DNA of 64,000 bases from Selaginella tamariscina. Its lineage: Eukaryota > Streptophyta > Lycopodiopsida > Selaginellales > Selaginellaceae. Below are positions 1,680-29,870 of the stretch, one piece after another. The DNA is taken from contig PUQB01000001.1 of NCBI GenBank assembly GCA_003024785.1, forward strand, positions 186,001 through 250,000, in the 5' to 3' direction. The translations under genes were made by a program, and so were the position numbers. The notes below the pieces were generated by a model that did no database searches, had not been told where the DNA came from, and saw only the letters and a program-made list of their open reading frames with translations. Position 1 is the first letter of the stretch; every line of letters begins with the position of its first letter.

Positions 1680-2980
<1,301 letters not shown>

Positions 2981-2982
2981 CC

Positions 2983-3600: not shown

Positions 3601-3712
3601 TCCTAGCTGTCGGAGAGGAAAACGTGAGCGTCCTAGACCTCCAGTCGATCTGCGGATTTGCAACAAACGAACCATGGCATGCCCAAAATGATGGGAGTCG
3701 ACCGAGTCTTGA

Positions 3713-4015
3713 TCAAGTTGAAGGAAATTGAACAGTTGAATGTGCCATACTGCAGGAGAGAGGTTCGGTAGCATGGGTAACTGCGCCAGAAGCAATCAGA
3801 CGCCCATCGGCCACCTCTACAGGAACTGCACGCTTCAACTTCACCACCGAAATGCCATGTTGAGTTGCAAACGTGTCATCCATGAAGCATGCATTTGCAC
3901 CAGTGTCTAACAAGGCAAACTCCATGAGCTCTCGATTATTAAGATGAATGTGTACAGGAAACTTAAGTGATGGGATGGTATGAGCAGCACCAATGGAGCC
4001 TGCACCTACGTCCAA
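3713..4015 (-). pseudogene. Chromovirus aspartic protease
   Basis: The minus-strand frame contains FALLDTGANACFMDDTFA, with the DTGA catalytic triad of retropepsins, followed by a hydrophobic stretch and a VADGR-like segment expected of the flap region. It lies between the gag zinc knuckle (higher coordinates) and the RT, as in other gypsy elements. Its role is cleavage of the Gag-Pol polyprotein. Confidence 0.88.
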
Positions 4016-4026
4016 CTTCGCGGCTC

Positions 4027-5001
4027 CTAGACGAAGTGGACATTGGAGTTTTCCGACTGAACTTCAGCTTCAACTTCACGCGTCTTGAAGTTCCTGGCTT
4101 TAATAGGACAATCTGCCACCTTGTGTCCTGCTCCACCACAATACAAGCACAGGTTCTCACTGCGACGACGTTGCTTCTCAGCAGCGGAAAGAGAGCCACG
4201 CTTGGATTTCTCAACCTCCATAGGAACTACTCCAGAAGGTGGTGCAGGAACATGTACCACAGCTGCAGGATTGGTTTGCAGGAACTGCTGACGGGATCTT
4301 TCCTGACGACGCTCGAACAAACGGTTGTCGCAACGAACAGCTTGTTGCATGATCTCCGCTAATGTTTGGGCATCCGGTAACGTAAGGAGAAGGTCCTTCA
4401 CGTCATCCCTCAACCCAAAACGGAAGTGTTCGATCAATGCAGTCTCGTCCCATGGAATGTTCGTGCAAAGTTGCTGAAATTCGGATGCATAGACGGAAGC
4501 TGGTCGGGATCCTTGAGTGAGCTTCCGTAACTTCGTGCATGCAGAACGGTACTTATCAGGATCTCCAAAACAGGCTTCAAAGGCAGCCACGAAACCTTCA
4601 AAGTCTTCCATCAATGGGTCGTCACGCTCCAGCAAGGGGCAACCCAAGCCCGTGGAGATCCACTTAGTAAGGATGCCAAAAGACCACCTTTTGAGCATCA
4701 GTCGAGTAGCGCCGTGGTTGCATACGGATCAAGAGCCGGATCTGATTCAGGAAACCTTGGAAATCGGCACGATTGCCACTGAACTTCTCTGGCATGCTAA
4801 CCTTCGGCTCCGAAGAAAAGTTCGATGAAGAGGGAACCACCGATGCCTGGAGAGAGCCTGCGCAGCAGCCTTGGAGGATGCATCAGCAGCTGCATGTGCC
4901 GCATTGGTGGAACCTTGCAGGTCGGTGACCACTTGGCGCAAAGTGGCCAGCTCATGAAGTAACATTTGGTGCTCGCGTTGAAAGCGCTCAAAATCAGCCA
5001 T
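4027..5001 (-). pseudogene. Chromovirus gag with CCHC zinc knuckle (one frameshift)
   Basis: The start is taken at 5001 (MADFERFQREH), the first Met after the leader. An N-terminal coiled-coil-like segment is followed, after a frame change near 4700-4750, by a gag core (4698-4300) that includes an FEACFGDPDK motif typical of plant gypsy capsids. The zinc knuckle reads CLYCGGAGHKVADC, a C-X2-C-X4-H-X4-C pattern. Gag packages the element RNA. The single break makes the frame discontinuous as assembled. Confidence 0.88.
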
Positions 5002-5675
5002 GATCTAGGAAAGAAAAAGGAGGAAAATGAAGGAAAAGAATCAAGAAAAAGGTAGCTGGAAAACGGAGAATATGAAGCAGTTACTATCAAACTGTCAAGC
5101 CACGATCCAGGAACCAGGAAGAGAGCAGGATTCCAAGAACAGAAGGCTTGACTCAGGAACAGGACCGAGAGCAGGACGGAACTAGGAATAGGAACAGGAC
5201 GGATCCAGGAGCAAGACAGGATCAGGATAGGATCCGGGAGCAAGACAGGATCCAGGAGCAGGACAGGGAACAAGAGCGAGACAGGAGCAACAGGACAGGA
5301 AAAGACAAGAACAAGACAAGACAAGATTGATCATAGTAAGACTAGGTGTTGATAGTAACTGATTGTACAACAATTAGGTCAGCTTTTATGCTCACAACTC
5401 CAAGAGCTAATCTAGGCATGAGTGCTAAAAGTGGTTGCATGCATGCAAAAGTGACTGCATGCATGCAGAGGCTAAGATGAGTCCACATGTCCCTTATCCT
5501 CTAGGCATATCCTGTGGCATATCCTGTAGGAATATCCTGCAACTGAATCCTGTGTCCGGAATCCTAGTAGGAATATCCTGTAGGAAAGTCTTATCCTGTA
5601 TCCGGAATCCTGTAGGAAAGTCCTGCAACCCATATCCTGTATCTGGAAACCTGTATTCTGTATCGGGTCGTGACA
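5002..5675 (-). repeat. Chromovirus leader and 5' LTR
   Basis: The outer LTR end at 5675 (GGTCGTGACA) matches position 80. The inner LTR boundary is uncertain; a plausible TG start lies near 5346. The leader between the LTR and gag (about 5100-5330) is a degenerate array of CAGGATC, CAGGAGCA and ACAGGA words. No tRNA-complementary primer-binding site could be assigned. Confidence 0.7.
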
Positions 5676-5699
5676 CAACCTTTGAAACATGGCTGAAGC

Positions 5700-6048
5700 G
5701 TTGTAAAGTCTGAACGGCATAACTCTGAAGGCGTAAGCACCCCAATCCGTGATGAATGCAGTTTTGGCTTGGTCATCTGCTGCGATCGTCACCTGGTTGC
5801 TGGTTGTATCCACTGAAGCCATCCATGAACGAGTACATCTCATGGCCCACTACGTCTTCTAGGATGGCCTCTGTGAATGGGATAGAGAATGGGTCCTTCT
5901 CCATGGCGACATTCAGCTGTCGGTAATCTATGCAAATCCTCAACCGGCCGTTCTTCTTTGGTACGATCACAATTGGTGACAGCCACTCCGGGTTCTTGAT
6001 GGGGTAGACGAAGTCCGCTTCAAGCCACTTGTCGATCTCCTGTTTCAC
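5700..6048 (-). pseudogene. Reverse transcriptase fragment interrupted by the chromovirus
   Basis: The fragment covers the fingers and early palm: IVPKKNGRLRICIDYRQLN, a MYSFMDGFSGYNQ block holding the first catalytic Asp, then, after a frame change, YAFRVMPFRLYNASAMFQRL just before the break. The catalytic YxDD is missing because the nested LTR begins at 5675. The clean cut inside a conserved domain demonstrates nesting. Confidence 0.9.
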
Positions 6049-6547
6049 TTTTCAAGCGTAGCTTGGGTTGATGCAGTAGCGTTGTTGCCGATTGGGTCGA
6101 GTGTTGCATTTTAGTTTAATTCGATGCTGGCACAACTTCGGCAGTACTCCCCTTAGGTTGTGATAGGTCCAGGCGAATACCTCCTTGTATCTACGGAGAC
6201 AGTCGGTAATCTGCTCTCCTAGCTGTGCTCCGATGTGAGCATTAACATTTACTAGTCAGGGATCTTCGTCGGTGCCTATGTTGACCTGCTTGACCGCTGC
6301 TTCAAGAGTTATGTTCCACCCATACATTGGCTTGCTACGGTACTCTTCCTGGGCCGATGGGGCTATACTCCGCATTTCCTTCCACAGAACATGCCACCTC
6401 AGGATTTGAGCTTCTGGAGTGTCTGCTCCGGTTTTTAACCGAGTCATTAGGTACGTAGCGACTGACTCTCGTACTTCCTGTCAAGGATCCACCTCTCCTA
6501 TGATGAATAGCTCTGGCAAACAAGCTAGGATGGCCGCTTCTTCCTCA

Positions 6548-7015
6548 TCATCCAACCCCTCTCCCCAGTTTGGGAGATGGTATTTCTGGGGTCGGGATTT
6601 CGAGGGTGGCGCCGGAACTTGTTTTGCAGTAACGGATACGACCCCCTCCTTGACGGGAAACCGAATTCTGCTTCTCCCAATCGTGTTGTACCCTTGCGCC
6701 CCGGAGCCACGGCTGGCCCATGAGTAAGTCGAACCCTCCTTTTGCGTGCATGTCGAGGATGACCACGTTTATCAGGAACTTGATGCTCTGAATCCTGATG
6801 CTTACCTCCCTCATGATGCCCTTAGGGACCACCTTGGCTTGGTTTGCCATGCGTATGAGGAAGGGTGAGGGCTCCGGGGGTGGCATCCCCCGTTGTTGAT
6901 GGAGTTCTGTGGACATGATATTTACACCTGATCCCCCATCTATGATCACTTTGTGGACTGTGCGGCCTACCATTTGGACAGGTATGGCCGATACATCATC
7001 CACAAAGTCTACCAC
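6548..7015 (-). pseudogene. Retropepsin-like protease domain of the second gypsy element
   Basis: The frame contains IDGGSGVNIM, in which DGGS stands at the place of the catalytic DTGA/DSGA triad, and FDLLMGQPWLRGARVQHDW, a block common to gypsy proteases with long linkers. It lies upstream of the RT of the same element on the minus strand. The degenerate active-site reading (DGGS) is seen in some plant gypsy elements, so it need not be a mutation. Confidence 0.75.
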
Positions 7016-7408
7016 TATTGTTGCGACCCTTGGGCGCGACTATGGGCCCGTGCAGTTCTCTGGTGAGGACTTCATACAGCCTTGGGGATAACCGTAGCAA
7101 TTCTCCTAAAGTTACCGACACCTGGGTTTCTCACATCTTTCCAGCGAGGGCCTTGTGCATCCCCATTGTGCCCTTGGCCTTTGCGCCCTGTGCCAGTCTC
7201 ACCTGTTCTGCAGCCGCTTCCACTTCAGCACGTCCTTGCTCCCACTGAGCTGGTTTCCCAAGTTCGGCTGCCACTTCCTCCTCACTAGACTCCCCGTTGT
7301 CTTCTTCCTTCAAGTCAACTGGTCGTCTTGTCTGTTGGGCTTGTGACCTCATGATTGCCCCACATTGCAGTTCGAGGGGTGACGTTTCTACATGGTGGGC
7401 CTGTGGTG

Positions 7409-8306
7409 TTAGATAACTTAACAACAACCAAACAATTTTTTAATCTATTACAGCGTGCTGTAAATATCATGTGTAATTACGTTGTAGCTATGTAACCGTT
7501 AAATTATATTGATGAATTGATTCATATACAAGTCTCTAGGTATATAAGAAAGAAAATGGTATATGCATTTGTTCAAAAGTTCCACAACTAATGGCTTTTC
7601 ATGAATGTACGGAAACAAACCTAAGCATAAAACATAAATATAAAATAACAACTTGAATTGTTAATAAGCGAATCAAAATTAAAAAATAACCAAAACAGAG
7701 CATAAACCTAGCACACCGCCTATGATCATGCTTGCTCAAATAAATACACACCAGCTTCTCCTTCAACAATTTCCTTCTCCTTGGTTTTTAGTTGCTTTCC
7801 CATGTCTATCATCCAAGCTTTCGAGCTTTCGAGCTCCTTCTCTACGTCTGTCTCGTAATCCTCCTGCAAACCAATAACCGCTTCATTAGCAAAGTGATAG
7901 CCAACATTATCTTCATCAGTTTCGAGGCCCTTCTCTATGTCTAGCTCATAACACTCTTGCAGATCAGCAACGGCTTGATTACCAATGTGATAGCCAACAT
8001 TGTCCGCGTTGTCTTCGTGTGCAGCCATCCTAACTTTCTTGACTTGGAGCTCCTTTTGTATGTCTAGCTTGTAATTCTCCTGCATACCAATACCAATAGC
8101 GGCTTGATTACCAACATTGTCCATGATGTCTTCATATGCAACCATCCTAGCTTTCTCGATTTTGAGCCCCTTCTCTATGTCTGCCTCATAATTCTCCCGC
8201 ATATCAAAAACAGCTTCATTACCAATGTGATAGTCAACATTGGCCATGCTAGGATTCTTGTTGTTGAGCTCAAACTGCTCAAACGGATTAGGAGTCGTGA
8301 AACCTA
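7409..8306. repeat. Direct duplication, left copy (partner 11114-11989)
   Basis: Starting at TTAGATAACTTAACAAC, this segment matches 11114-11989 over about 880 bases in the same orientation. The differences are one 17-bp indel and scattered single-base deletions in the right copy. The shared part includes the 3' end of the repeat-containing gene and its downstream flank. The left boundary coincides with the end of the second gypsy element. Confidence 0.9.
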
Positions 8307-9480
8307 GGTTAATATATGAGCCTTGCAGATTAAACATTTCACTATAATTGGGGTCATATAAGGGCACCTCCACATCTCCCACATCATAGCTAGACCCAAC
8401 GTTCTTATCTGCGAATGCACTAGAAGGACCACCCAAATCTATGCTAACATGTGTGTTGACCTCACAGTCTTTCTCATCAAATCCGTTAGCATCATTACTC
8501 GTACACACATTGCCCAGTTGGAATTTGATTATCTTGGTTAAATATTGGCCGTAGTAGAAGCTCGTTTGTGCTCCCGATCGAACTCTCCCACATTGAATAT
8601 TCATAACTTTACTCAAGTGGCCTGCCCAATCAAGAGTTGCATTGTTATCCCACACATACTTTGCTGCATTAAATAGGCGTTCCCCTACATACATGTCATT
8701 CACCCTCGGATGGAAGCGATTGTTGAGGAATCTCACAAGCACTTAAAAAGAGTTGTCAACTATGTTTTTGATTTTATAGCCATTCTTTTCCCGACTGCAA
8801 AAATGAAATTATATCTATAATTTATAGATTTGGTCATCTCCATAGTATACTTGCTATTATAAATATATATATATATATGTTGTGTGTTATTCTTTGTACT
8901 GAAGGAAACATGTCACATAAGGGAAAATAATAATAATGATACAATTAAATGTATTGATCCTTAGATAGCGATACACAATATACAAACATATTGTACATAA
9001 TATATATACAAGACATACTGTATATAAAACTCATAATTACAAACATCGAGATCATACCTTACAATTTCTACCATCATCAATGAATGTGGTGCTCAGTTTA
9101 TCTGGAGCTACTGCAGGAGCGCTGGCAACCCGCTCTAGTTGACAAGGATTAGGAAGACCGAAGATGTCATATATACGCCCTGGATCAAGGGAAATTTCAC
9201 GACCTTTAGCAAAGCCAATGCGCTTATCTTTGTCATAGCTCTGAAGAAAGCCTTGAACAGAGGTATATCTGGGTCATCGGGAATATCCATGCACACCATG
9301 CTCCACAATCCGCAAGTTAAAAGAAGAACATGCATATCAATCGAGTTCTCATCTTGAGTATTGTAGTCGCAACTCTTCATCCTCTTAAAATTTATATTAG
9401 GAATCTCCTGGGAGGATACATCCCTCCGCTTATACCCATAATCCCTACTAATCACCGAGATCCTCTCACTAATATTTCCC
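7726..9480 (-). pseudogene. Unrecognised two-exon gene with ~40-residue internal repeats (broken)
   Basis: Exon 1 (about 9480-9058) reads DNEN..DMHVLLLTCGLWSM and, after a frame change near 9230, a region ending DDGRNCK before a GTATGA donor. Exon 2 begins after a TTTTGCAG acceptor near 8800 and runs to 7726. An in-frame TAA at 8743-8745 lies just before VLVRFLNNRFHP. The C-terminal half has four imperfect repeats of about 40 residues with the theme QE.YE.DIEKGLE, then DNVGYHIGNQAV; they are acidic and probably helical. I do not recognise the family. The stop, the frame change and a truncated second copy suggest a decayed, possibly transposon-borne gene. Confidence 0.55.
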
Positions 9481-11113
9481 TTTTGTTGTCAAACCTAGGA
9501 TAGTCCATCTAGTTATATATGTTAAATTTCAAGTGATTTGGATCAAAGAATATTTGCACGCGTGAAATCCATATATATAAATACATCTATGTTATGCTTT
9601 AGGTTCCATTATTATATTTATATTAATAAATATCCCAAATTAAATGGTTTATTACATTCTATTGATTATATATTATAACACATTCACATATTATAATTAC
9701 GTAATATCTACATAATAATAATAATATCATAGTTAATAACAACAAACGAGCTTATTAGGAGTTAATAAATTTAAATGTTCTTTTGCAAGTCTAAAATGCG
9801 TTAAATAAATAACTTTAGTATATGTGCATGTTTATATATAAAGATACTATGCTACACCATTACACATTCGATTGATTTATTTTCTTATAAATCTTTAGAC
9901 ATTGAAATATATAAATATTAATTTATAAATGGATTTAATTTTACAAGAAATTACTTTAAAATTTTCAAACTTTGTATCTATATGAGATTTATATAAAACA
10001 CACACATAGAATTAGCATTGAATTAGTTTCGATGAACATCGATATTTCATGTGAAAATGTGAAATATCACAAGGTACTCTTATTATTGGTGAGAAGGCTT
10101 TAGTGTATAATATTATATATCATCATCTTGACAGAATGAAAATCCAATAATTAAAATAAAGATTTAAGAATATGTGATGTATGTTTTTTAGACTTTTTTT
10201 TTTTATTTTTTTTTTGTTCTTTTACCATTATTCATGAATGTAGGTGTGTATATATCTATATAAATAAATATTTCTCTAATATGCTTAAATATTAATCTTT
10301 TTTATGCTCGATGTTATAAGCTTATTAATTTACATGTTTACAATCACGGTTTAAAGAGATGTTGTACAACTTAAATTATTTATCAAATAACATTTATTTG
10401 TTTTTTATTTATTTATGCATATATATAAAGGAGAGAGATCTCGAGCCTTATTTTAATAAATCATAAACTTAATATTCTATTCATATTGTATACATTTGGT
10501 TTTCATTCTAATTTATTAAAAAGTTTGTATAACGTTTTTAATCTTTGCACTTTTGTTATATTATGTGTAATGTTTTAAATAATAAATAATATAAAGATTT
10601 AATAAATATCATAGTTTAATTTTAATTTATTGTTTATAAATGTTGCCATTTTATTTCTTATATAGATAGGGATTAAAAAAGATTAATAGTGCATAAATAA
10701 TGAGGTAAAGGTTGTATAGTTCCAATGACAAATGAGGCAATGCGAGGACAAATGTATAATAAATGTGTAAACAAGACATGGTCTCTTAAACGAAAAGAGT
10801 TAACATGCATAATACATGTTAAATTCATTGCGGTGGATGCGTAGAAGTGTTGAAAGTGTCGTAATCAACAACGTTACAAGAAAAACATGTATTCTAAGGT
10901 TAAAGGAATGTAGTATTTCCTTTGCATTAAAGACAATTAATCATGTAATTATTTTCCTTAAACATAACAATATTTCTATAATAAAGATTAGTTAATTATT
11001 AATAAAAATGTGAATTAAATAATTAAAATTGTTAATTATTAAGAATTGGGACTATAAATATTTTTGTTTATAATTTAGTTTTGTTTTAGGGTGATTATAA
11101 AGTCATATTCGTT
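9481..11113. other. AT-rich spacer containing a dispersed repeat
   Basis: No convincing coding sequence was found on either strand. The stretch 10236-10565 recurs, with small indels, at 27668-27965 (shared words include TTATAAGCTTATTAATTTACAT and AAAAAGTTTGTATAACG). The rest is low-complexity A/T with short TATATA tracts. Confidence 0.7.
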
Positions 11114-11989
11114 TTAGATAACTTAACAACAACCAAACAATTTTTTAATCTATTACAGCGTGCTGTAAATATCATGTGTAATTACGTTGTAGCTATGTAA
11201 CCGTTAAATTATATTGATGAATTGATTCATATACAAGAAAGAAAATGGTATATGCATTTGTTCAAAAGTTCCACAACTAATGGCTTTTCATGAATGTACG
11301 GAAACAAACCTAAGCATAAAACATAAATATAAAATAACAACTTGAATTGTTAATAAGCGAATCAAAATTAAAAAATAACCAAAACAGAGCATAACCTAGC
11401 ACACCGCTATGATCATGCTTGCTCAAATAAATACACACAGCTTCTCCTTCAACAATTTCCTTCTCCTTGGTTTTTAGTTGCTTTCCCATGTCTATCATCC
11501 AAGCTTTCGAGCTTTCGAGCTCCTTCTCTACGTCTGTCTCGTAATCCTCTTGCAAACCAATAACCGCTTCATTAGCAAAGTGATAGCCAACATTATCTTC
11601 ATCAGTTTCGAGGCCCTTCTCTATGTCTAGCTCATAACACTCTTGCAGATCAACAACGGCTTGATTACCAATGTGATAGCCAACATTGTCCGCGTTGTCT
11701 TCGTGTGCAGCCATCCTAACTTTCTTGACTTGGAGCTCCTTTTGTATGTCTAGCTTGTAATTCTCCTGCATACCAATACCAATAGCGGCTTGATTCCAAC
11801 ATTGTCCATGATGTCTTCATATGCAACCATCCTAGCTTCTCGATTTTGAGCCCCTTCTCTATGTCTGTCTCATAATTCTCCGCATATCAAAAACAGCTTC
11901 ATTACCAATGTGATAGTCAACATTGGCGATGCTAAGATTCTTGTTGTTGAGCTCAAACTGCTCAAATGGATTAGGAGTCGTGAAACCTA
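11114..11989 (-). pseudogene. Truncated second copy of the repeat-containing gene
   Basis: This copy repeats the 3' flank and C-terminal repeats of the 7726 gene, but with many one-base deletions that break the frame (open only at 11310-11771). The homology stops at GAAACCTA (11989). The same point in the other copy is followed by unrelated sequence, so the duplication ends inside the coding region. Confidence 0.8.
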
Positions 11990-12117: not shown

Positions 12118-13064
12118 CAACACACACACACACACACATATATATAATATAATGAAATTAAACGTGTGTGTGTGTGTGTTGAGAGAGAGAGAGAGAGAGA
12201 TGGTTCTTACAGGCCTTTTAAACGTGTGCAATTGCCCAGCTCGGTGAGAATGTTGCCATAGAAATTGTTCACTCTCTTTAGTCTCTGTAGCACAAGAGAC
12301 ACCCATCCAACACAAGGGTCCACATCTGTTGCTTCCCAGTTGCGCAGCACCTTATTCACGGAGCATTCAGATTTTTCTTGAATGATAGAAGTGCTTCTCC
12401 TAAACATCTCTCACATAATCAAATGCGTGTGCTTGGAGAGAGAGAGAGAAAGAGAGAGATACCATTAGGAGACAGAGCATTCACATATATTGAGACTCCA
12501 AGCAGCAAAAGGTACACTTGAAAGATTGACATGGTAACAGTTTCTTAAAATGTAAGAAATCTATTCATTGGAAGTCTTTGGGAGCTTACATGAAAGCAAT
12601 AGCGAGAATCATATGGTTTTGACGAGTTTAAGGTCCCCTGAAACACAAAAACATATAGCTAGTGCAAAGAACAAACAAATAACAATAGAGTATGTTTGAA
12701 GGTTTATTTGTAAAGCGCCTGGCCGACGTAAATGTGATTCAAATGCAATCCAGGTGAAAGTGTATTTGATAAGAGCAGAAAGAAAAAAGAGCTTTGGATA
12801 TGAATGTGTCTAGTATACTATACAATGCTTAATGTATTATACGTTATGTGAATATTCTACTTTTTCCAATACGTACATTATTTTAGTCATTTAATTAAAC
12901 TATATGGTTATGGATAATCAGAATTAAGCATTTGTACAATTGACTGATGGAGCATGCATATCTAGGAGAGAGATTAACTTGTTGTTAATTATTAAATAAT
13001 CAAAATGCTATTTACACATCAGCGTTTATGAAGTGACGTGGAACGGACAATGATTGCTTCATAA
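12118..13064 (-). pseudogene. Second copy of the LRR receptor 5' end, internally deleted
   Basis: It is homologous to 28130-29243. It keeps the signal-peptide exon, the LRR N-terminal exon and one LRR exon, but lacks the sequence corresponding to about 28214-28436. As a result the N-terminal exon runs straight into the LRR exon (NNFYGNILTELGNCTRL) without an intron. The deletion joints are not at splice sites, so this is a genomic deletion rather than a retrocopy. The copy is cut at 13064 by the Mutator-like element and resumes at 21928. Confidence 0.85.
13056..13064. repeat. Target-site duplication, left (GCTTCATAA)
   Basis: The 9 bases GCTTCATAA directly left of the element are repeated at 21928-21936. 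The related uninterrupted locus at 29235-29243 has a single GCTTCATAA in the same flanking context. Nine bases is the classical length for Mutator-like elements. Confidence 0.93.
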
Positions 13065-13205
13065 GGGTTTGACATTTCCTCAAGCGCAGTTTGTAGAGCG
13101 TACGGATTTCCGTCATACCGAAATATTCCATTCCATACAGAATATTCGTTTTTGTATAAAGAATATTCTGGTGCGGCGGGGGGCAATCATGGCGGCACGG
13201 TAATG
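13065..13205. repeat. Left terminal/subterminal inverted repeat of the Mutator-like element
   Basis: It contains TCAAGCGCAG about 20 bases from the tip, CATACAGAATATTCG, and GAATATTCTGGTGCGGC (13161-13177). Each has an inverted counterpart near the right end. The spacing differs from the right arm by about 80 bases. Confidence 0.7.
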
Positions 13206-13372
13206 GTGTCAAAGTTTCACAAATTTGGGGGTTAATCTGACATATATATTTATATATTTATATTTATATTTATGTTTTTATTTTTTTAATATTTATATTT
13301 ATAACTATAATTATATTTTTATATAAATACCGCATCAAACTAAATAAAAATTACAATAAAAACATAACTCAA

Positions 13373-16300
13373 TCATGAAGACTCGTTTCCACCAGCCAGT
13401 GCCTCGTCGTTAATGAATGCATTGTTACGGTGTCGTGAACGTTTCTCCAAAATCTGTCTGTCGTAAACTTCGAACTCTTCAACCATTTTCTTTGCCATCT
13501 GATTAGCGTAGTCTGGTAGAACAATACTGAAAACATATTAAAGTTTAAAACCAAAGAAATGATAAAACAAATCTCACTCATCATCTGATGACTCGTATGA
13601 TCTCTCTTCTGCTGACTCATCTGATGACTCGTCGTTGTGCTCCACGGACTTCTCCGTAACAACATCCTCGTCGTTTCGAGAAGGCGGATCCTGGTCTCCA
13701 TCGTTGTCGCTAGCCAAAGGCAAATCCTGTGCTTCTGTTTCCATGGCCCTCTTCCACTCATCAAAAGGAGTAATCATGGAAACAACTTGATCATCCCCAC
13801 CACCTTCAGCTGCTGTAACACTTGGAATGACCTTCCTGAAGACATCTCTGGCTGCTAAAACCAGATCCTTGTTGATGTCGATTCCATAACCATGTCTCCC
13901 TGTGTGAAAAGCTGCAAGAATACTAGCACCGGTTCCCACTGTTAGATCCACGACAGTTCCACCAGGCTTTGTGAGCTTCTCCACTAGCATCGCAAACAAC
14001 TTGGGAGATTTCGGGCCAATTGAAATCCTGAAAGTTACAATATTAGAACATGAAAATAACAAACAACATTATACCATGGGAGCTGGAAATCTTCTGGCTC
14101 ATCAAAAAGAAGAGTGTAGCGAGTGTCCAAGATCTCCTTGTTCTTGGCAACCTTAGAGTAGGGGGAACCAAAAATACACATGGCAATGATGCTTTCCTGA
14201 AAAAACAAACATTAAAAAATGACATTCTCAAAAAGAAGAATTACCTTTCTAGAGAAACGGTATCCCCATGACTTTGTCGTGTGCACATAACTCATCTGCA
14301 GAAACTTTAGCTTGCAAGTGTTTCTTCAAAGCTGGAACATCATCCGGTAGCACAAACACTACCACATGGCCAGCTCTGTCTAATATCCCGAAAGCAAGGT
14401 TCACCAAGTTCTTCAGCAAAGCATCCGAGAACTTCGTGTATTGATCCACCATCCCGCCTGCCTCAGCAACGCATCCGTAGGCGGGTCGATGACAACGAGA
14501 TCAACAGCTCCCTGGATGCATTTTGGTGGAGGCTTCGCACCAAACACATGAATAGTCCAACTTGACTTGTGACTCACGATCCAATCCTCAAGCTCCTTCA
14601 ATCCCGACGGAAAAGGCCTTCCGGCTTTGAAGTACTGGACTGCAAGGTTCTCTGAATCTGCATGAATGATTTCCCAGCTTCCATTTCCCTTCTCAGGCAT
14701 CACCATCCTCAACATATCATCTTCTTCCAATCCAGCCGAGATGAAGGATGGGGCTGAAGAAGAAGCCTGTCCCTTGCTGACCTTGCTCGCCGATCTAGCA
14801 TACCTGATATCCATCTTCACATGGAGCTTCCTTGCAGCACTGTCGTTCTTCCATAATAGCTCTCGCCATCATCCTTGTGTATCTTATAGCTGGCCATCTC
14901 CCATTCGGGACAGTCACCAGGAAGGAAATCCAGCCAGAAAGGACAGTGTTCCACTTCGTAATCACTGATATCACGTAACAACCGGCTCCACATGCTAGAA
15001 TCCTTGGTAACATCCATCCACTCTTTGAAATCTTCAGGGAGTGCATCGTTTTTCCATTTTAAAAACCTGTAAAAATAGATAAAAATCTGTAAAGAAACAA
15101 AAAAAAAGACTTGCCTGAATGCCATTCTTTTTGCAGATTTTTCCAGCTCAAATAGTCGAGAAGGTGGAATTGTCGCACCGAACTCCTTGTTCTCGAGCAT
15201 GTTCTGGTACATATCCAACTTAATTTCATTGTGCATCTTCGTATACCATGCCATGAACTCCTCTACATGCTCGACCAAAAGCTCTTTAGCTGCCTCGCGA
15301 CCTGGCACGATAAAACGAATAAAAATGAAAAATATAAATATTAAATTACCTGGAACCAGTAAGTAAAGATGTGCAAAAACTTGATGAAGTCCTTGTCAGG
15401 CCAGCCGGTGACACCTTCCTTCTTGTCTTTCTCCGTCATGTTCACCAGCTTCTCAAGAACGCCACGTTCTTGAATGTGCACAAGCTTCCCAAGGATATCA
15501 ACCTTGACGTTGGAAGGAAGCTGGGACTTCGCGAGCATTTGAAGCTTCTCCAGAGTTATTTGCTTCGTTGATGGTTTGATAGTGATATCTGTGATCGCCT
15601 TGAACCAATCTTCGCACCGCCGGATCAGCAATGGTGAGGAATTTGTTCATCCGAACTGTGAATGTCTTGTAAACGCTGGAGAGGATCTGAGATTCTGTCT
15701 GGTTTGGTTTTCTGTTCGCAAGTTTTGTAGCGATTTGTCACTTCAGTTGATTCTGCAAAAGAAACCGAAAATCAAAAAACAATCAAAAGAAGAAGAAAAG
15801 ATTACCTCCAAAAAATCTTCACCAATGTCGTCTTTGGATACTCGTACCAAACGTCTTCTTTTCTGTTCGATCTCCACACTTCCACAGCTTTTCTATCTTC
15901 CTCCGGCATCCCGCGAAGAACATGATCGGTAGAAAGATCTGCAGACTTCACACAACAATTCCGCAAGAACTGCAAGGTGTGAATGATTGTTGTAGGAACC
16001 ACACGAGCAGTTGCTCTGCAAAACAAAACAACATTTATTTAGTATTTAAATAATGAAACAAACAAGTCACTTACTCATTCAACCGATTGCAAGCAGCGAT
16101 TAGTCTCTTCTCCTCTTGCACTGTGGATGCTATGAGTGTTGCACGTACACGCAAAGTCCATTTCAAACCTGGCTCTTCAGCAAGCAAAGTGTTCAAAGCA
16201 ACCCGACGATGATTCCCATCCCACACCAGAAACTTTGCATCTTTCAGAAATCGATACCACGCAGAAAATGCTGGCTTATGCAAATCCGCTTCAAACTCTC

Positions 16301-16990
16301 TATCGACCTGTGCTTCTGACTCATTCCAGCTTCGGCGTTCGTCTGCACTCAGCTGTGGTCCGAAAGATAAGGTGAACACTGACGTCTCCTGGTAAAATCC
16401 TTCAGCTCTAATCCATCCAACAAGGTCTTTCACGCCGTCCTTAGTGACATTCCTCAAACGTTGGTGTGGGAGCAACCTGTGAACCGGGATACGCGGAGGC
16501 TCACCAAGCTCAACTGGAACGTAGTGGTCTCGTCCTTGTAGCGATGTGTCAATATCCGTGTCATACCGAATAACAAGATCCCGAAGAAGCTTGGATGGAG
16601 CCTCAAGTGTCAGCCGCTCCGGAATTGCATATGATTCGGCAACATCCTCAGGAGCATCCAGTTTCCTCTTCTTATTGAACATTTTACTACCAAGATCAAT
16701 GTCCGGTACTTCCTCTGCATTACCGTGTTCTGCAGAGCTTCCTGCGATCTCCCTATTTCTAGGCATCCATTCACTCACCACAGCATGTTCATCAATGACT
16801 TGCGAACTATCCACAGGTTCATTGTTCGTCGGCATCATTTTTCGCGCTGCAGTTGTTGCTTGGCGCCTCGGCCTCCTTTCTTGCCACGAGGTTTTGGAGC
16901 CATATCTGCAAGAGCTTCTTGGACGATATGTTCCTGAAGTGTCAAAGTCTTGTATTTATCTCGCAGTCTCTTACTCTGCCTTTGCCTCAT
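13373..16990 (-). CDS. ParB-like domain fused to N4/N6-type DNA methyltransferase
   Basis: Exons by splice sites: 16075-16838 (or from 16990), 15806-16015, 15350-15752, 15115-15301 (GC donor), 14245-15066, 14075-14196, 13578-14027 and 13373-13526, ending TGA at 13373. The N-terminal exon has VPVHRLLPHQRLRN, then KFLVWDGNHRRVAL, the pattern of the ParB/Srx fold, whose G-x-R/H-R motif binds nucleotide. The C-terminal part has DLVVIDPPT (motif IV, usually DPPY/F/W) about 150 codons before a SAM-binding block, KPGGTVVDLTVGTGAS and GRHGYGIDIN. Motif IV before motif I is the beta-class order. The tail is acidic and serine-rich. A basic 52-codon frame (16990) ends at an ATGA overlap with the 16838 start, so one lost A may separate them. 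Frame changes occur near 15640, 14830, 14450 and 14275. It probably modifies adenine or cytosine in DNA; the target is unknown. Confidence 0.75.
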
Positions 16991-16991
16991 T

Positions 16992-17746
16992 CTGCAATTA
17001 CAACAACTGATAAGAGTGTGTGTGTGAGTTGTTTTAATTTATGGACACATTTACTATATATGTATACCTATCAATATATATAGACACACACGCACACACA
17101 CACATATTTATACATGTGTAATGTTGTTTGTGTGTGTGCTCACTATATAATGTTCCTTGTGTATGTGTGTAATGTTGCTTATGTGTGTGTGTGTGCAATG
17201 TTGTTTGTGTTTTGTGATGTGTCTGTGTGAGAGAATATGGGTATATTCATATCTCTTCACATGTATATACAGACGAAAAAGCATCATCTCATATATACAA
17301 GTCTTAATTCATATACTTATACATATATATATATGTCTTTTTAAGTATGTATTTAAATATATATATTTATATATACACACACATGTATACAAGTCTAATG
17401 TTGTATAATCATAATGTGGTACGTGTGTAAAATGTTATTTATGTGTGTGCGCAAACAAACAAACAAACACACACACACACACACACGGATTTTCCTGCCC
17501 GAATTGGGCAGGAAATCCTGCCGCGATGGTGCGGCCGCCGCACCATCCAGGCGGCAGAAATTTTGCCCAATTTGGCAGGAAATGTGTGTGTGTGTGTGAG
17601 TGTGTTTGCCAAATCGGCAATAACTCATGCCGTCGGAGGTGTGTGTGTGTGTGCACGCGCGTGCGTTTGTGAATAGAGAGAAATCCTACTGAATTTGCAC
17701 ATACATGCACAGAAATTACTATACACATATATAAGATTTTACCTGT
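16992..17746 (-). other. Probable 5' intron of the methyltransferase gene, with microsatellites
   Basis: A possible first exon ends ATGGCTACAG/GTAAAA at 17747 and the next acceptor (TTGCAG) lies at 16992. Joining them gives ATG GCT ACA GAA TGA, so that exon would be 5' untranslated or carry a short upstream frame. The interval holds GT/CA runs and the large hairpin described separately. Confidence 0.45.
17449..17612. repeat. Long foldback hairpin flanked by complementary CA and GT tracts
   Basis: The core is GATGGTGCGG-CCG-CCGCACCATC (17525-17547), extended by CCTGCCGC/GCGGCAG and then TTTCCTGCCC...GGGCAAAATTT-type arms. A second perfect 10-bp palindrome (17491-17515) lies within the left arm. 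The outer arms are (CA)n on the left and (GT)n on the right, so the whole ~160 bases can fold back. It may be a MITE-like insertion or a captured terminal repeat: the GTGCGGC word also occurs near both ends of the enclosing element. Confidence 0.8.
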
Positions 17747-17749
17747 AGC

Positions 17750-18396
17750 CATGTCGCCGTGACGCTCACACTAGCCTCTTGTCGCCGCAAATGGAGAACA
17801 AGAACCCGCAAAAAAAAGAACAAAAGTGCCCTCTCTCACAATGGAGAATGGAGAAGAAGAATGGGCGCCCTAAACCTTTACCCTAAAATCTAACACTTAA
17901 CCCTTTGACCCTTAACTATAAAACTGTGTTTAATCAAACCATACAACAGTATATACAATACTTGCGATAAATAACGTACTATATAAAAGGATACAAATAC
18001 AAACACATATTTAAGTAAAAATTTGTATGTTAAAAAACATATTATTATATAATTAAATAAATATTCGTGTAAAAATATGTATTTATAATGTCTACATTAG
18101 ATAAAATACTGGATCAAATAACTATATAATTATAATAAATAAATTAACAGAATATAAACAAGTCATAAATAAATATGTCAGATGAATGTAGATTAGACAC
18201 ACATTTATTTAAAAGACAATAAAGATTGCTCTATCTCTACGTGAAGTGCTATACTATATTAGCATCTAAGATCTATACGTTTCCTTGAATTAAATATTCG
18301 CCCACGTTGAGTCATGATTGTAATATCCGATATTTACCAAAAGATGATTAAGTAATGCTGTTGTTTTTTGTCACGTTTGTGGTAACTGCTTGCAAA
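17750..18396. promoter_or_regulatory. Divergent intergenic region of the Mutator-like element
   Basis: It lies between the 5' end of the minus-strand methyltransferase gene and the start of the plus-strand transposase. It is AT-rich, with TATAAAA-like runs (TATATAAAAGG near 17981) and no other open frame. By position it should contain both promoters, which would allow co-regulation of the two genes. This is inference; no specific binding site is recognised. Confidence 0.5.
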
Positions 18397-21300
18397 ATGG
18401 CCAGGATTGTTTACGGCAATTTGGATCACGATGTTCCTGTGATAGATGGTGTTGGAATCATTCTTACTAATCAGATTAGAACGTTCTTTGGCATTTTTGA
18501 TTGGCAAAGTGTTCGTCTTTTTAAACTTCTTCATGGGCAATCTGCTTTAGAGATCGAAATAAACGAGGACCAAGATGGAGGGAAGGATAATCCAGGATAT
18601 GTTTTGTTACCGGATGAAGGACCATTGTTTAAGCTTGTCGTTGCTTCTGACTCTGAATACTCAACGTTGAAGGACCTTTTCACTTCTAATACCTGCAAAA
18701 AGGGAAGAATTCTTATCGAGGGTTCCACGATCATTCATACAAATGAATTGCCTGTTGCGTATGATGGGGATGTCATTTTTGAGCTCCCTCCTTCCGAATA
18801 CAAATACAAAGGAATGAATCGGAAAGAGGATGGACATACCTGGACAGCAGGAACGACCAGCAACTGGAATTTTCAAGCGAGGGTGTCCAGGAGCAAATGT
18901 GTTGGGAGCCTTTGCTGTATCAACCCGGACTGCCCTGCTTCTAAGGCAGGATTTCCGAACTGCACTAAATGGAAAGGATGTATTGTTTCCCCACCTTCAA
19001 TCGACAAACTGGCAAAAGGATTGACATGTTTTTTCTGTAAAGAAAATCCATTGTGCCTTGAAGTTTGTCATGCTGTGGCGTTTTGCGTTTTCCCAGACGA
19101 CATAACCAAGACTAGATTGTTTATCCACCAGGGAAAACATTCACATCCAGTGGGTGATGGTGTTTCTGCATCGAACAAAGAAGAAATGCATATGGCGGTC
19201 CAGAATGCAACAGAAAGAACTCCCAGAGCTAGTCCAAGAGTCATCGAAATGGCAGCATGTAAAGATGCTATCTTTGGTTTCCTATTAGATAATTCTGAGC
19301 CTGGAAGTTGGGATAAGCTCATGGATCATTTGCAGCCATTATCAAACAATCGAAGGTACAATTAGAGTTTTACTTTGTGCTGAGCATTCTTTGATAATAC
19401 CTTTGATGCAGAGTTCGTCAATGGGTAGCGTCCGCAAAGAGAACTGCTGCTGAAATGCCAGAGAATATTGATGGATTATTGGAGCTGAAACGAAGGTTGT
19501 CTATCCCATTCATCCACGTGATTCACTATCCTGGGATGAATTTCGTGGTTCAGACGACCAGGCATTAGTTTTTAAGATGACGGTTTCAGGGCCAGGTTCT
19601 GGAATCGATTATGTAAGGATGTGCCAACCTCCTCTTGGCCCTTTGCAGAAGAGTTGGGTTCTACTATCACACACACACACGTGTTGATAAGTGGATCACT
19701 CTGGCATTGCATGTTTACGACCCAAAGTAAGATGTTATCTTTTTGTTGTTTGCTTAACTCTTTGATTATTTTATAGTGTGCGATTATCCACCATTGCTTA
19801 TGGTGACATGAAGAGACAAACGGCTGGAGCTGTGGAGAAGTTTTTTCGTGCTATGTTGGATGTCTGTTCCGAGAAGGGAATCTACAATGTGCAGTTCGCT
19901 GGGTTTATGTCCGATGAAGCAGGAGCGATCTGGCAAGCAATCAGGAATGTGTTCTTTAATGGCCAAGAAATTCCTGGACGTGAACGGAGCTGTATCTTTC
20001 ACTATGAACAAGCCATACAACGTGTGACAAGGAAGTGGGTCCCTCTTGAACATCAACAACAACATCTTCAACTTTTGAGATCATGGCCAACAGCCACATC
20101 AACAACTGATCGTGAAGAAATTGAAAATAATCTTTTCCGCTTTTGGAATGAAAATGTGAAGGATGTTGGAGTTATGCAGACGTGGTTTTCATGGTGGGAA
20201 AGACAGAAGAATCATATTTCAAATGTTGTTCTTGAAAGCATGCCGGAGAATGCTGCAAGGGTTGTGCCCATGACAAACCAGTCGGAGTCTGTTCACGGAA
20301 GATGGAGGAGGGCTAGAGATTCAAAATACATTTCATTGTACCAAGCTACAATCCACGACCTGACTGAATCAGTGCGACAATGTGCTCTTGTGAAGGCTTT
20401 TAGAGATGGAAGGTATAGTGGTTCCGGGCCGACTTCAGAGGAGCTCTCAGCAAGGTTCGAGAGAAGAATGTCAAATGCTAACTCAACAACACCTACAGCA
20501 AAGGTTATCATCGACTTAGTTGAAGATGTTGCTCCATCAAGCATGCAGGATACTGCTTTTGTGGCTGCCACGAATGTTGAACATCGCACTGTGCAAAGAA
20601 ATATGGGGTCAGAGGTTATTCCAACACAGTGTAGACGAAAGCGACGGTTGGATTTTCCTGTTGCAGAAGAACATGAAGAATATGTTCTAGTTGAAGAACA
20701 AGATGTTACACCTGGACAATGGGCGATTAGAAGATGTGGTGAAAGAAGTTCTGTGAAATGTCTGGCAGGCTTTCCCTCTTCAGGAGGTCAGTGGAGTGCT
20801 TGTGACAAAAAGATCAGTCCTAGTGGTAATCGAGTGGCTGCTCCTTGTTTTTTTGGAAGGATCAGATACAATGACAAAGAAACTGGTGAAGAATGTTTTC
20901 GCTCACAAATGATGTATTTTTGTCCAACAAACATGCTTTGCAGCAGACATCCAAGACCAACTATTGTTTCTCCGCCAGCTTCTACCTCGGTTTGGAAAGT
21001 TCAAGTGGGCACGAAGCTGATAGCAGTGGAGATCAATGATTTTGGCAAGATCAGGTTTTATGCTAGTTGGGCTTCCTTCAGCTCATGCAGGAGTGCCAGG
21101 TTTTTCAACACCTCATGTTCCTTTAGTTCCTGTTGGAGTCACTGGATTTTCAACACCCCTGCACAATTTCGTGGACCTCTTGTTCACAAGTGGTCATGCA
21201 ACAAGAACACCTTTAGGGATGTCTAAGAAACAACAAGTAAGTTTTGAAGCATGTTTGACGTTGGGAGCATATGTCGCAGAAGTTGACGTGGTTGATCCTC

Positions 21301-21563
21301 CAACATGCATTCGCTTCAGAGTATGTGACAACGACCATACATCTGCTTGGGTTGTCATTTGCAGCGCACCATCTTGTTCATGCTCGGAGTTCTGCAATGG
21401 TCGTCAGTGGGTGCCTTGCAAACATATGTATTTTGTTTACAAGCGTGTACTGGGAGCTGATCCTAGAGTTGTCAAGCATTTGCAACGTCGTACACTTGCA
21501 CCCCGTGAACTAAGTTCTTTATTGATGTTACCAAGGAACCTCCATCCTCCACCATCTATTTAG
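18397..21563 (+). CDS. MULE transposase with WRKY/GCM1-like and SWIM zinc domains
   Basis: The start is taken at 18397 (AAAATGGCC context) rather than the Met at 18355. Exon 1 runs to about 19356 (donor GTACAA), exon 2 about 19414-19725, and exon 3 begins near 19778. Exon 1 has a cysteine-rich region (CVGSLCCINPDCPASKAGF ... CFFCKENPLC) ending in GKHSHPV, the C...H-x-H layout of WRKY-GCM1-type DNA-binding zinc domains. The catalytic part includes DKWITLALHVYD and GFMSDEAGAIWQAI followed by CIFHYEQA, matching the MULE DDE core and its C..H pair. The C-terminus has CSCSEFCNGRQWVPCKH, a SWIM finger (C-x-C-xn-C-x-H), and stops at 21563. Frame changes lie near 19550, 19660 and 21050-21100. Confidence 0.9.
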
Positions 21564-21729
21564 TGTGTTTGGTTTATTTTCAAACAGCTTCGGTTTTATA
21601 TTTGTTATTTCAAACTTATAATTTCCAATATAAATTTTAATGGTAATTTTATGCTTAGCATATTTTTAAGTAATTTAACATATATTTCCTTTAAATACAA
21701 CAAAAATATACTACCATATTTTGTATGCG

Positions 21730-21927
21730 GCTGCCGCACTAGAATATTCTACAATATTTTTGAAAATTTTGAAAGGTCCAATTGTGTACACTTGGCAGTA
21801 TGAAAAATTTCCGTACAGAATATTCGAGGATATCTAGATAAAAATCGTATGGAATAACAGAATATTCAAGAATATTTGCAAATCTTAGTCAAGCTCGTTG
21901 ACCTGCGCTCGAATTTCGCTGTGCCCC
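21730..21927. repeat. Right terminal/subterminal inverted repeat of the Mutator-like element
   Basis: Read inverted from 21927, the sequence gives GGGGCACAGCGAAATTCGAGCGCAG and, further in, GAATATTCTAGTGCGGC, mirroring the left arm. The arm also has several AGAATATTC words not present on the left. Confidence 0.7.
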
Positions 21928-21936
21928 GCTTCATAA
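21928..21936. repeat. Target-site duplication, right (GCTTCATAA)
   Basis: A perfect copy of 13056-13064. Directly after it the sequence continues as AATATTATTACGTATGG, exactly as at the unoccupied relative (29235 onward). Confidence 0.93.
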
Positions 21937-22870
21937 ATATTATTACGTATGGCTGTACGGAAACTAAAACTCCGTTTACACTGGTTTAGTTTAAACACTT
22001 AAACATTTTAATGTGTCAGATAATAAATAGTCAAAACACGAGTTTAAAAGTTGTCATCCGTGTGTATGCACACAAAAATATATATTAATCAGCTTATTCA
22101 TTTGATAAAATTTTATTTAATTAATTTGTGCTTCTTGTACAGTATTATCACCCACAAAGACAATTAGTTGGATTTGTTCATATCGGGTTGCATCAGTTGC
22201 ATCAACGCAATCTGCATGAAAACCTTTAATATGATAACTCTTATATTTTTATACAAAATACATAAAAAGCTTTAACATAATAACTTTCATATTTTGTACA
22301 AAATAAAAGAGCATTTCCAAGCAAACGTCTGAGACAAAAAGCAAAAATAAGTATCTAAATTGAGTAAAATAAATGAGAACAAAAGCAAACATATGGAAAA
22401 AAAGAAAAATAAATATCTAATTTAAATAAAATAAATGAAAATAAATGCTTACTGCGCTGGAGACTAGGTTTATTAACCTTAATGATTTAGTTTTGCACTT
22501 TATAAAGATCAAGAACAAATTTAAACGTTTTCAGATTTGAAAGTCAAAATGAAACAACATTTTAAAAAAAAAGAGAACATCATACTTGTTCGAAAAAAGG
22601 AAGAAAGGAGAATCTTTCACCTTCTTTCTTTATAATAAGAAACATATTTGTCTATTATTGTTGTGCAATAATAAGATATCTATATATATATAAATATGCA
22701 AATCTCACTTCCTTCCCACTCAGTTTACAATGACAATTCTCTCAAAACAAAAAAGCTGTATGAGGTTTATTATTCAAGTTGTATATATTTATACATAGTA
22801 GTTTACCTCGTGATGTATATATTTATACATAGTAGTTTACCTCATAATCTATACCACGTACATGTGTATG
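21937..22870. repeat. Continuation of the segmental duplication (partner 29244-29870)
   Basis: This is the right half of the copy split by the Mutator-like element. It matches 29244-29870 with moderate divergence to about 22590. From about 22600 it instead resembles the F-box array spacer (31780-31940: AGAATCTTTCACCTTCTTTC, AATAATAAGATAT, TATATTTATACAT). No gene is seen. Confidence 0.8.
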
Positions 22871-28148: not shown

Positions 28149-28684
28149 TTCTTACAGGCCTCTTAAACGTGTGCAATTGCCCAGCTCGGTGAGAATGCTG
28201 CCATAGAAATTGTTATGATGTAGAGATCTGAAGAAGATCATACAAAATTCAACTTCCATATAAAACACAACAAATTATTTAACATTTACAATTTGTTTAG
28301 CTTCCCCAGTCTAGGGGACAGAGTTACAACAAGTTTACGAAATGGAAGATTCCTGCACAACAATATACATACATAGATATATACACATATGTACATGTGT
28401 ATGTGTATGTTGGCCTATATGTTACTTACAAGCTTTCACTCTCTTTCGTCTCTGGATCACAAGAGACACCCATCCAACAACATGTTTCTTCCCAGTTGCG
28501 CAGCACCTTATTCACGGAGCCATTCAGATTTTTCTTGAATGATAGAAGGGCTTTCCTAAACATCTCTCACATAATCAAATGCGTGTGCTTGGAGAGAGAG
28601 AGAGAGAGAGATACCATTAGGAGACAGAGCATTCACATATATTGAGACTCCAAGCAGCAAAATGTACACTTGAAAGATTGACAT
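27981..28684 (-). pseudogene. 5' half of an LRR receptor gene (signal peptide, LRRNT, three LRRs)
   Basis: Exons: 28615-28684 (start at 28684, hydrophobic signal peptide MSIFQVYILLLGVSIYVNA), 28430-28565 (LRR N-terminal domain, ALLSFKKNLNG ... NWEETCCWMGVSCDPET with its paired cysteines), ~28290-28352, 28156-28227 and 27981-28052. The last two are exactly 72 bases, the 24-codon module of plant LRR exons (NNFYGSILTELGNCTRLRGL; GGTIPQEFGELSNLKIL). An additional exon at about 28750-28791 may belong to the 5' end. No further LRRs, membrane span or kinase follow, so the gene is truncated after the third LRR. A second copy lies at 12118-13064. Confidence 0.85.
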
Positions 28685-29870
28685 GGTCTAACAGTTTCTT
28701 AAAATGTAAGAAATCTGTTTATTGGAAGTCTTTGGGAGCTTACCTGAAAGCAATAGCGAGAATCATTGGTTTGACGAGTTTAAGGTCCCCTGAAACACAC
28801 AAAAACATATAGCTAGTGCAAAGAACAACAAATAACAATAGAGTATGTTTGAAGGTTTATTTGTAAAGCTCCTTGGCCGACGTAAATGTGATTCAAACGC
28901 AATCCAGGTGAAAGTGTATTTGATTAGAGCAGAAAGAAAAAAAGCGCTTTGGATATGAATGTGTATACTATACGATGCTTAATGTATTATACGTTATGTG
29001 AATATTCTACTTTTTTCAAAGTCGACCAGGTAAATCCAGTCAGTACGTACATTATTTTAGTCATTAATTAAACTATATGGTTATGGATAATAATCAGAAT
29101 TAAGCATTTGTACAATTGACTGATGGAGCGTACATATCTAGGGAGAGAGATTAACTTGTTGTTAATTATTAAATAATCAAAATGTTATGTACACGTCAGC
29201 GTTTATGAAGTGACAAGTGGAACGGACAACGATTGCTTCATAAATATTATTACGTATGGCTGTACGGAAACTAAAACTCCGTTTACACTGGTTTAGTTTA
29301 AACACTTAAACATTTTAATGTGTCAGATAATAAATAATCAAAACACGAGTTTAAAAGTTGTCATCCGTGTGTATGCACACAAGGTGTGTTTGTCTATATT
29401 TTATTAAATAATATATATTAATAACTATATATTATTCATTTGATAAGAATTTTTATTTAATTAATTTGTGCTTCTTGCACAATATTATTACCTACGGAGA
29501 CGACTAGTTAGATTTGTTTGTATCCGGTTGGATGTTGCAACATCAGTTGCATCAACGCAATCTCGTGAAAACCTTTAACATAATAACTTTTATACTTTGC
29601 ATAAAATATATTAAAAACTTTAACATAACAATTCTTATATTTTGTACAAAATACAAGAGCATTTCCAAGCAAACGTTTGGGATAAAAAAAGAAAATAAGT
29701 ATTTAACTTGAGTAAAATAAATAAAAGTAAATGCTTATTGCATTGGGGACTCGGTTTATTAGCTTTAATGATTTAGTTTTGCACCTTTAAAAAATCAAGA
29801 ACAAATTCAAACATTTTCAAATTTGAAATTCAAAATAAAATAACATTTTAAAGAAAGAAGAGAACATCGT
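28130..29870. repeat. Segmental duplication, uninterrupted copy
   Basis: It is homologous to 12178-13064 plus 21928-22590. It covers part of the LRR receptor fragment, its upstream region and about 630 bases beyond the insertion point. It keeps about 220 bases (28214-28436) that were deleted in the other copy. Confidence 0.88.
29235..29243. other. Related empty site for the Mutator-like element
   Basis: A single GCTTCATAA in the context CGATT-GCTTCATAA-ATATTATTACG. The other copy has the same left context at 13051-13064 and the same right context at 21928 onward, separated by 8.9 kb. This shows the pre-insertion sequence. Confidence 0.93.

Follow-up and report, generated by a model that had tools for sequence, protein, structure and literature searches.

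A transposon with two divergently oriented genes lies in the genome of the lycophyte Selaginella tamariscina, within a 64,000-bp stretch of contig PUQB01000001.1 (assembly GCA_003024785.1, positions 186,001 to 250,000 of the forward strand; hereafter the window, in whose coordinates positions are given unless a copy is named). One gene encodes a transposase resembling those of the Mutator and IS256 groups, and the other encodes a protein that joins a probably ParB-like N-terminal part to a predicted DNA-methyltransferase domain. The element is a single insertion of 8,863 bp at 13065–21927, and its limits come from an empty copy of the insertion site found by comparing the window with itself. 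The left flank (12268–13064) aligns to 28435–29243 at 90% identity and the right flank (21928–22374) to 29235–29722 at 83%. The two alignments overlap over nine bases, 29235–29243, which form the single-copy target, and the matched segment runs uninterrupted from 28435 to 29722. The 9-bp sequence GCTTCATAA stands on either side of the insertion as a target-site duplication, at 13056–13064 and 21928–21936, and once in the empty duplicated segment, at 29235–29243. An original prediction, made from the letters of this stretch, held that one bounded element with a 9-bp duplication and an empty relative encodes both genes; the flank alignments and the positions of GCTTCATAA confirm this, and the same ends were located in 17 of 20 copies fetched from the genome.

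Mutator and Mutator-like element (MULE) target-site duplications measure 8–11 bp and mostly 9, and the duplication in the window agrees with that length. Typical MULEs of the terminal inverted repeat (TIR) class have inverted repeats of about 100 bp or more. No such long repeats were found here: by eye, the terminal 25 bp on the left (13065–13089, plus strand) and, inverted, on the right (21903–21927, minus strand) match only over the 10 bp at positions 16–25, TC(A/G)AGCGCAG, and the ends of an element from a sister family (L040, below) agree at 13 of 20 bases. Judged by its ends, the element is MULE-like and not a TIR-MULE. An Rfam scan of the window gave no matches.

The second gene runs on the minus strand from 16990 down to 13373 in eight exons separated by introns of 47–59 bp, and its product is about 1,092 amino acids long. 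Exon 1 (16075–16990, compared with open copies) holds the ParB-like part, with WDGNHR at 16206–16223; exons 2 (15806–16015), 6 (14075–14196) and 8 (13373–13526) follow from the gene model. Comparison of exon lengths with open copies shows exon 3 (15350–15752) to be 2 bases short and exon 5 (14245–15066), which carries methyltransferase motif IV as DPPT at 14476–14487, to be 10 bases short. Exon 7 (13578–14027) contains the S-adenosylmethionine (AdoMet) motif I, DLTVGTG, at 13928–13948 and gives the match to PF01555. Exon 4 (15115–15301) is followed by an intron, 15067–15114, that by its splice sites is of the GC-AG type (AG|GCAAGT), beginning with GC instead of GT, and the same GC-AG intron occurs in copies whose splice pattern was located.

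The transposase gene lies on the plus strand, divergent from the ParB-methyltransferase gene, in three exons between 18397 and 21563. Exon 1 (18397–19355, gene model) encodes a Cys/His-rich N-terminal part; exon 2 (19412–19726) would carry the first catalytic aspartate (D1), which reads VLLDHTH in other copies; and exon 3 (19777–21563), where the IS256 model matches, contains SDEAGA (19910–19927), TNQSES (20273–20290) and a SWIM-like CxC...CxH (21375–21425). VLLDHTH, SDEAGA, TNQSES and CxC...CxH were seen by eye in copies of the family and partly in sister families, and we take them to be the catalytic D, D and E and a SWIM-like finger. The NCBIfam IS256 model scored 28.5 bits (E 7.3e-7) on the window reading frame, far below its curated cut-off of 150, and 27.1 bits (E 2e-6), also below cut-off, on the full protein; no Pfam transposase family, MULE included, matched the window pieces or the spliced proteins. 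The MULE label given originally is reasonable, though its grounds are a match to IS256 below the cut-off, a 9-bp duplication and motifs read by eye. Between the two start codons lies a central intergenic region of about 1.4 kb (16991–18396). It includes an inverted repeat at 17464–17608, where several copies align in both orientations and where lengths differ.

Both genes are broken in the window copy. By eye and from exon lengths in open copies, reading the methyltransferase gene takes roughly six or seven single-base corrections of frame; in the transposase, an expanded CA repeat has destroyed the first catalytic aspartate.

Profile searches, proposed for both domains, supported one and left the other below significance. 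PF01555 (N6_N4_Mtase, cut-off 26.7 bits) was exceeded by one window piece (27.2 bits), by the spliced protein of copy L023 (34.0 bits, E 3.8e-8) and by proteins of the sister families (39.7 and 39.8 bits); the genome holds at least 150 matches over the cut-off, many from other families. No Pfam ParB model matched the ParB pieces of the sister families. ParB/sulfiredoxin-like domains share a conserved active-site motif, DG(x)(H/R)R, and WDGNHR is invariant across an alignment of three families; relatives of the bacterial ParB-like protein YbdM carry DGFHR. From this motif and by analogy with a published algal protein (below), the N-terminal part is probably ParB-like. AlphaFold2 models from single sequences reached a mean predicted local distance difference test score of 36 (ParB part) and 32 and were not used.

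In beta-class amino methyltransferases motif IV, (D/N/S)PP(Y/F/W), precedes motif I. A pattern search found motif IV as DPPT in 18 of 21 loci of the window family (20 copies plus the window), as DSPT in L028 and not at all in two; loci L029–L041, which represent 10 distinct places, read DLPN in 13 of 13. Motif I was detected at 16 of those 21 loci and at all 13 of the others. Aligned with five phage enzymes, the window family has DPPT in the motif IV column and sister families A and B have DLPN, where the phages have SPPY, DLPY, DPPY, DPPY and DPPY.

Copies, pairing and sister families

The genome searched comprises 300.7 Mb in 1,391 contigs. It has at least 150 matches to the DYW deaminase family, which, together with the very short introns and a fragment in L041 that resembles a pentatricopeptide repeat protein, fits a land plant and best of all Selaginella. 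Match counts are lower bounds in which the best candidates were listed, and absence from a list proves nothing. The ParB exon has at least 152 matches. Each of the 20 copies fetched through it contains transposase sequence too, arranged in the same way; in L018 a 1.8-kb run of N lies between the two genes. These copies were chosen by the ParB exon and the sister families by the methyltransferase, and gene presence in both sets is a matter of selection; because of this, only counts that start from the transposase speak to co-occurrence. Of the 97 merged transposase loci listed, 81 have a ParB exon in divergent orientation no farther than 12 kb away, and at 77 of these the distance is 2.5–4.5 kb. 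In the reverse direction, merging 150 of the 152 ParB matches gave 124 loci, 81 of them with a listed transposase; two of the others (C302 and C693) nevertheless proved to contain transposase in the fetched copies L025 and L021. That the gene pair recurs in many copies with 9-bp duplications, a point put forward for checking with the prediction, is borne out by the exon matches, by the paired loci and by the duplications described next. The prediction had also allowed that other copies might lack the methyltransferase, with the gene occurring elsewhere as an ordinary host gene; as far as the listed matches go, the pairing at 81 of 97 loci points the other way.

Besides the window, 8 of the 17 copies with both ends located show an exact duplication of 9–10 bp when the ends may shift by up to 3 bases. 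Copies L023 and L019 differ by no substitution over 8,900 aligned bp. L011 differs from L019 by 1 substitution, L016 by 4, L013 by 5, L014 and L022 by 6 each and L012 by 10, and the remaining 12 fetched copies and the window differ by 14 to 527. The two-gene family looks recently active. L023 and L019 also differ by 35 indel bases, 26 of them within the central low-complexity region; since indels are present without substitutions, we suspect that many single-base indels are assembly errors. Splicing by exact patterns resolved the frame of the ParB-methyltransferase in 11 of 20 copies, open in 6 (L016, L017, L018, L020, L022 and L023) and broken in 5, and that of the transposase in 14, open in 1 (L013) and broken in 13. 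A 941-residue open frame in L018 that first resembled an intronless gene is the run of N mentioned above. L018 and L027, on different contigs, share a right flank, CTATTATATGTGGTTT, and have different left flanks, which may reflect recombination between copies or an assembly join. In the older copies L026 and L028, C-to-T changes are concentrated at CG and CHG sites; in L028 they affect 76 of 494 CG, 87 of 621 CHG and 106 of 2,296 CHH sites. L026 and L027 were considered as divergent families and rejected, with DNA 94% and 96% identical; the low protein identity of their ParB matches comes from indels and stops, not from distance.

Two distant sister families hold the same gene pair. Local translated alignments of their members L040 (family B) and L041 (family A) with the window family gave pieces 27–62% identical for the transposase and 24–44% for the ParB-methyltransferase. 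In L040 the element spans 570–8615 of the locus, with a 9-bp duplication, AGTTGAGAG, taken as the best of many candidate repeat pairs. L041 has the same divergent pair, and L039 is a rearranged family A locus in which part of the transposase shares the strand of the methyltransferase. Family B has a great many copies: 103 of 150 listed transposase matches share one score and have no stop, and for 93 of the 150 a divergent methyltransferase exon is listed no more than 12 kb away, at a median distance of 4,169 bp. L041 also contains a plus-strand piece of 36 residues, at 4366–4470, that is 78% identical to residues 861–896 of the window-family ParB-methyltransferase; it lies opposite in strand to L041's own methyltransferase gene and is perhaps a stray fragment of the window family or the product of an exchange. 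A fragment resembling a pentatricopeptide repeat protein is present in L041 as well.

Between families A and B, the proportion of differing silent sites (pS) is 0.78–0.88, which is saturated, and the corresponding proportion at nonsynonymous sites (pN) is 0.21 in the motif I and helical exons, 0.31 in the ParB exon, 0.35 in the motif IV exon and 0.13 in a transposase exon. The transposase D1 exon is 75.5% identical between the two families, and four exons of the second gene are 49–70% identical. Saturated pS combined with low pN argues that the second protein has been kept by selection; as judged from these comparisons, it is under purifying selection and is kept along with the transposase.

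Palindromes near the element ends

The palindrome GAATATTC occurs five times in the window element, at 13140–13147 and 13161–13168 on the left and at 21742–21749, 21818–21825 and 21860–21867 on the right. In the window and in all 17 copies with both ends, its count is 2–4 in the left-hand 400 bp, 3–5 in the right-hand 400 bp and zero inside. The sister families have it too: L040 has 3 left and 3 right with none inside, L039 has 3 and 2, and L041 has 2 and 1. Dinucleotide shuffles of the window and L040 ends yield a mean of at most 0.045 occurrences per 400 bp. Over 19 related elements there are 140 end sites and no interior site, counts that are not independent, because 18 of the 19 belong to one family; it is the families that are independent.

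Two sets of controls were used, the reversed pattern genome-wide and seven other palindromes of like composition within the same 19 elements. Among the latter, CAAATTTG was found 18 times at ends and never inside, which we take to be one site common to related copies, and the other six occurred at most once in all. The tandem form GAATATTCNNGAATATTC, with a 2-bp spacer, is present 722 times genome-wide, against about 0.3 sites expected under an assumed 39% G+C, and its reversed pattern is absent. Of the first 50 tandem sites listed, 24 lie within 9.5 kb of a listed element gene and 26 do not; three of these 26 were fetched, and all three match sister-family element ends. The GAATATTC sites are located past the 3' end of each gene, and none lies in the central divergent region. 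This position, remote from the gene starts, suggests binding sites for a protein that acts on the ends.

Elsewhere in the window, 1–5675 contains minus-strand frames of a Ty3/gypsy-type polyprotein, broken up like those of the element, with an 80-bp repeat at 1–80 and 5596–5675 (97.5% identical). A tandem array at 31824–45715 is made of units of about 2.94 kb, 94–97% identical, with F-box-like reading frames. The segments 7406–8306 and 11111–11989 are duplicates (96.8%) with a reading frame that contains internal repeats.

Known parallels and possible roles of the second protein

Searches against 5.8 billion proteins returned no homolog at E ≤ 0.01, with 8,000 candidates scored for each query, for either the ParB-methyltransferase (read-through, residues 60–980) or the transposase, and pattern matches in viral contigs (5 and 12) and other genome contigs (14) were none of them confirmed. 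Among phages, the window-family methyltransferase exon found no matches and the family A ParB exon one record, at E 7; the family B motif I exon found 1,062 records at E ≤ 10, the best at 4e-5. The ParB-methylase fusions of phages and bacteria are shorter proteins than the one encoded here. The five aligned phage methylases, which need not be ParB fusions, have an aromatic motif IV, unlike the window family.

The closest described parallel is Sola1-1_Ec32 of the brown alga Ectocarpus, in which, as far as the available description goes, a gene opposite the transposase encodes a 1,104-residue product with ParB-like and N4/N6 DNA-methyltransferase domains (PMC12477816); the same text cites comparable proteins in transposons of green and red algae (Iyer et al. 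2011; Petroll et al. 2025). By that description, not by protein sequence, the two elements are alike in layout and product size (1,104 and about 1,092 residues). Sola1-1_Ec32, however, is a 21.5-kb element of the Sola1 superfamily in a brown alga, whereas the window family belongs to a land plant, measures 8.9 kb, is Mutator/IS256-like with 9-bp duplications and has a high copy number. Also by published description, Bce_0392 of Bacillus cereus (PMC5512222) and phage and bacterial fusions combine a ParB-like part with an amino-methyltransferase and occur in mobile elements too. Retrotransposons with DNMT or Dam-like enzymes (PMC5890265) likewise encode their own DNA-modifying enzyme, but they are LINE and DIRS retroelements with another methyltransferase, and the window family is a DNA transposon. 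The 4mC (N4-methylcytosine) enzymes of rotifers and Marchantia, as described in PMC8885841, are bacterial-type amino-methyltransferases in eukaryotes, as here, but they are host enzymes and not transposon-borne. In the open-licence literature searched, no land-plant transposon with a ParB-methyltransferase was recognised. The cargo had been put forward as lacking a well-described example among plant MULEs; it appears to be new for a land plant and for this transposase group, and the cargo type itself is already published for algal transposons in the description of Sola1-1_Ec32 (PMC12477816). What is new here is the host group, the transposase group, the high copy number, the sister families, the end palindromes and the non-canonical motif IV.

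On balance, we lean toward reading the window element as a decayed member of a two-gene, Mutator/IS256-type family of DNA transposons that was recently active and whose second gene encodes an accessory protein that marks or occupies the element ends. The many copies and the presence of the pair in at least two sister families suggest that the second protein helps the elements to live or move. In such a model, the accessory protein would use its ParB-like or helical part to recognise the ends with their palindromes, the AdoMet-binding methyltransferase domain would mark or occupy them, and the marked or occupied ends would assist or regulate transposition or delay host silencing. We infer end binding by the second protein and an effect on transposition from the gene pair, its conservation and the palindromes, and we hypothesize that the element may in this way mark itself.

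Several observations weigh against this reading. The ParB part has no significant profile match: DndB reached 17.9 bits (E 0.0017), below its cut-off of 29.1, and comparison with relatives of YbdM gave an hhalign probability of 0.8 and an E-value of 0.07. Motif IV precedes motif I, the order of the beta class, but in the alignment its aromatic residue is absent in three families, and catalysis may have been lost. The palindromes could also be sites for the transposase or for a host factor. Sixteen of the 97 listed transposase loci are without a listed ParB exon, 9 of the 17 copies with both ends showed no exact duplication within the shifts allowed, and exact-pattern splicing showed none of the 20 copies to be open in both genes. 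Finally, the C-to-T pattern of the older copies fits cytosine methylation of the family by the host, whose silencing evidently still reaches it.

The most credible alternative, though one we would not call probable, is that the transposase alone binds the GAATATTC arrays and that the ParB-methyltransferase has its role elsewhere, for instance in host chromatin or in replication or repair of the excised element. Subterminal repeats bound by the transposase are a common design in plant DNA transposons, and in the comparison of families A and B the D1 exon of the transposase has kept a higher identity than any of the second gene's four exons. The location of the sites at the ends, far from the central divergent promoters, fits either protein and does not single out the transposase.

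Two further alternatives concern the methyltransferase domain, and we regard each as possible but doubtful. One is that the protein is a working N6-methyladenine (6mA) or 4mC methyltransferase that methylates the element encoding it, which would mark new copies as self or let them escape silencing. The PF01555 scores over the cut-off, the purifying selection and a motif I that is conserved in the sister families and matched by phage methylases (the 4e-5 record above) favor such an enzyme, and the same proposal is printed for the Ectocarpus element in the part of PMC12477816 that describes it. Motif IV speaks against it, with DPPT or DLPN in place of the SPPY, DLPY and DPPY of the phage enzymes. 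The assignment to the PF01555 fold is kept on the strength of the profile match, and activity is not claimed. Loss of the aromatic residue of motif IV usually damages amino-methyltransferase chemistry. Since that residue is missing here, methylation is not to be assumed, and the same applies to the published proposals of self-methylation. The beta-class domain of the original prediction thus stands as a PF01555 match, and the case for an active methyltransferase is weakened. The other alternative, which we hold just as tentatively, is that the domain has lost or changed its catalysis and works within the transposition complex as an AdoMet-dependent module for DNA binding or scaffolding. It would account for an AdoMet motif that is kept and for selection that persists although the aromatic residue is gone in three families; motif IV was judged by alignment alone, however, and a non-canonical motif IV need not mean inactivity.

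The idea of an accessory protein at the ends can be drawn out into a more specific model, which we think rather unlikely to hold in full. The ParB-methyltransferase would load on helically spaced GAATATTC arrays at both ends, much as ParB loads on parS, and its AdoMet-binding, catalytically altered domain would label, pair or shield the ends, which would direct the transposase to the right DNA and let new copies evade silencing long enough to reach hundreds.

It is quite improbable that the GAATATTC arrays are instead heat-shock elements placing the transposon under stress control: AGAATATTCTAGAATATTCT does read as contiguous alternating nGAAn units, the heat-shock consensus, but the sites lie past the 3' ends of both genes and outside the central divergent region, which contains none. 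We reject a one-off, pack-MULE-like capture of a host gene, for which the transposase loci without a listed ParB exon might be cited, because 81 of the 97 listed loci carry the pair and two sister families hold it too.

Conservation of the pair between families whose silent sites are saturated argues that the second gene is part of the transposition strategy and not passenger DNA. Our findings add a land plant, and a further transposase group, to the algal cases of ParB-methyltransferases carried by transposons. If the proposed end-marking is true, a lineage of land-plant transposons would have its own system for marking its ends. The family shows signs of recent activity and its end palindrome is a defined, direct target for binding and methylation, which brings the long-standing question of why mobile elements carry genes for DNA-modifying enzymes within reach of tests in a plant.

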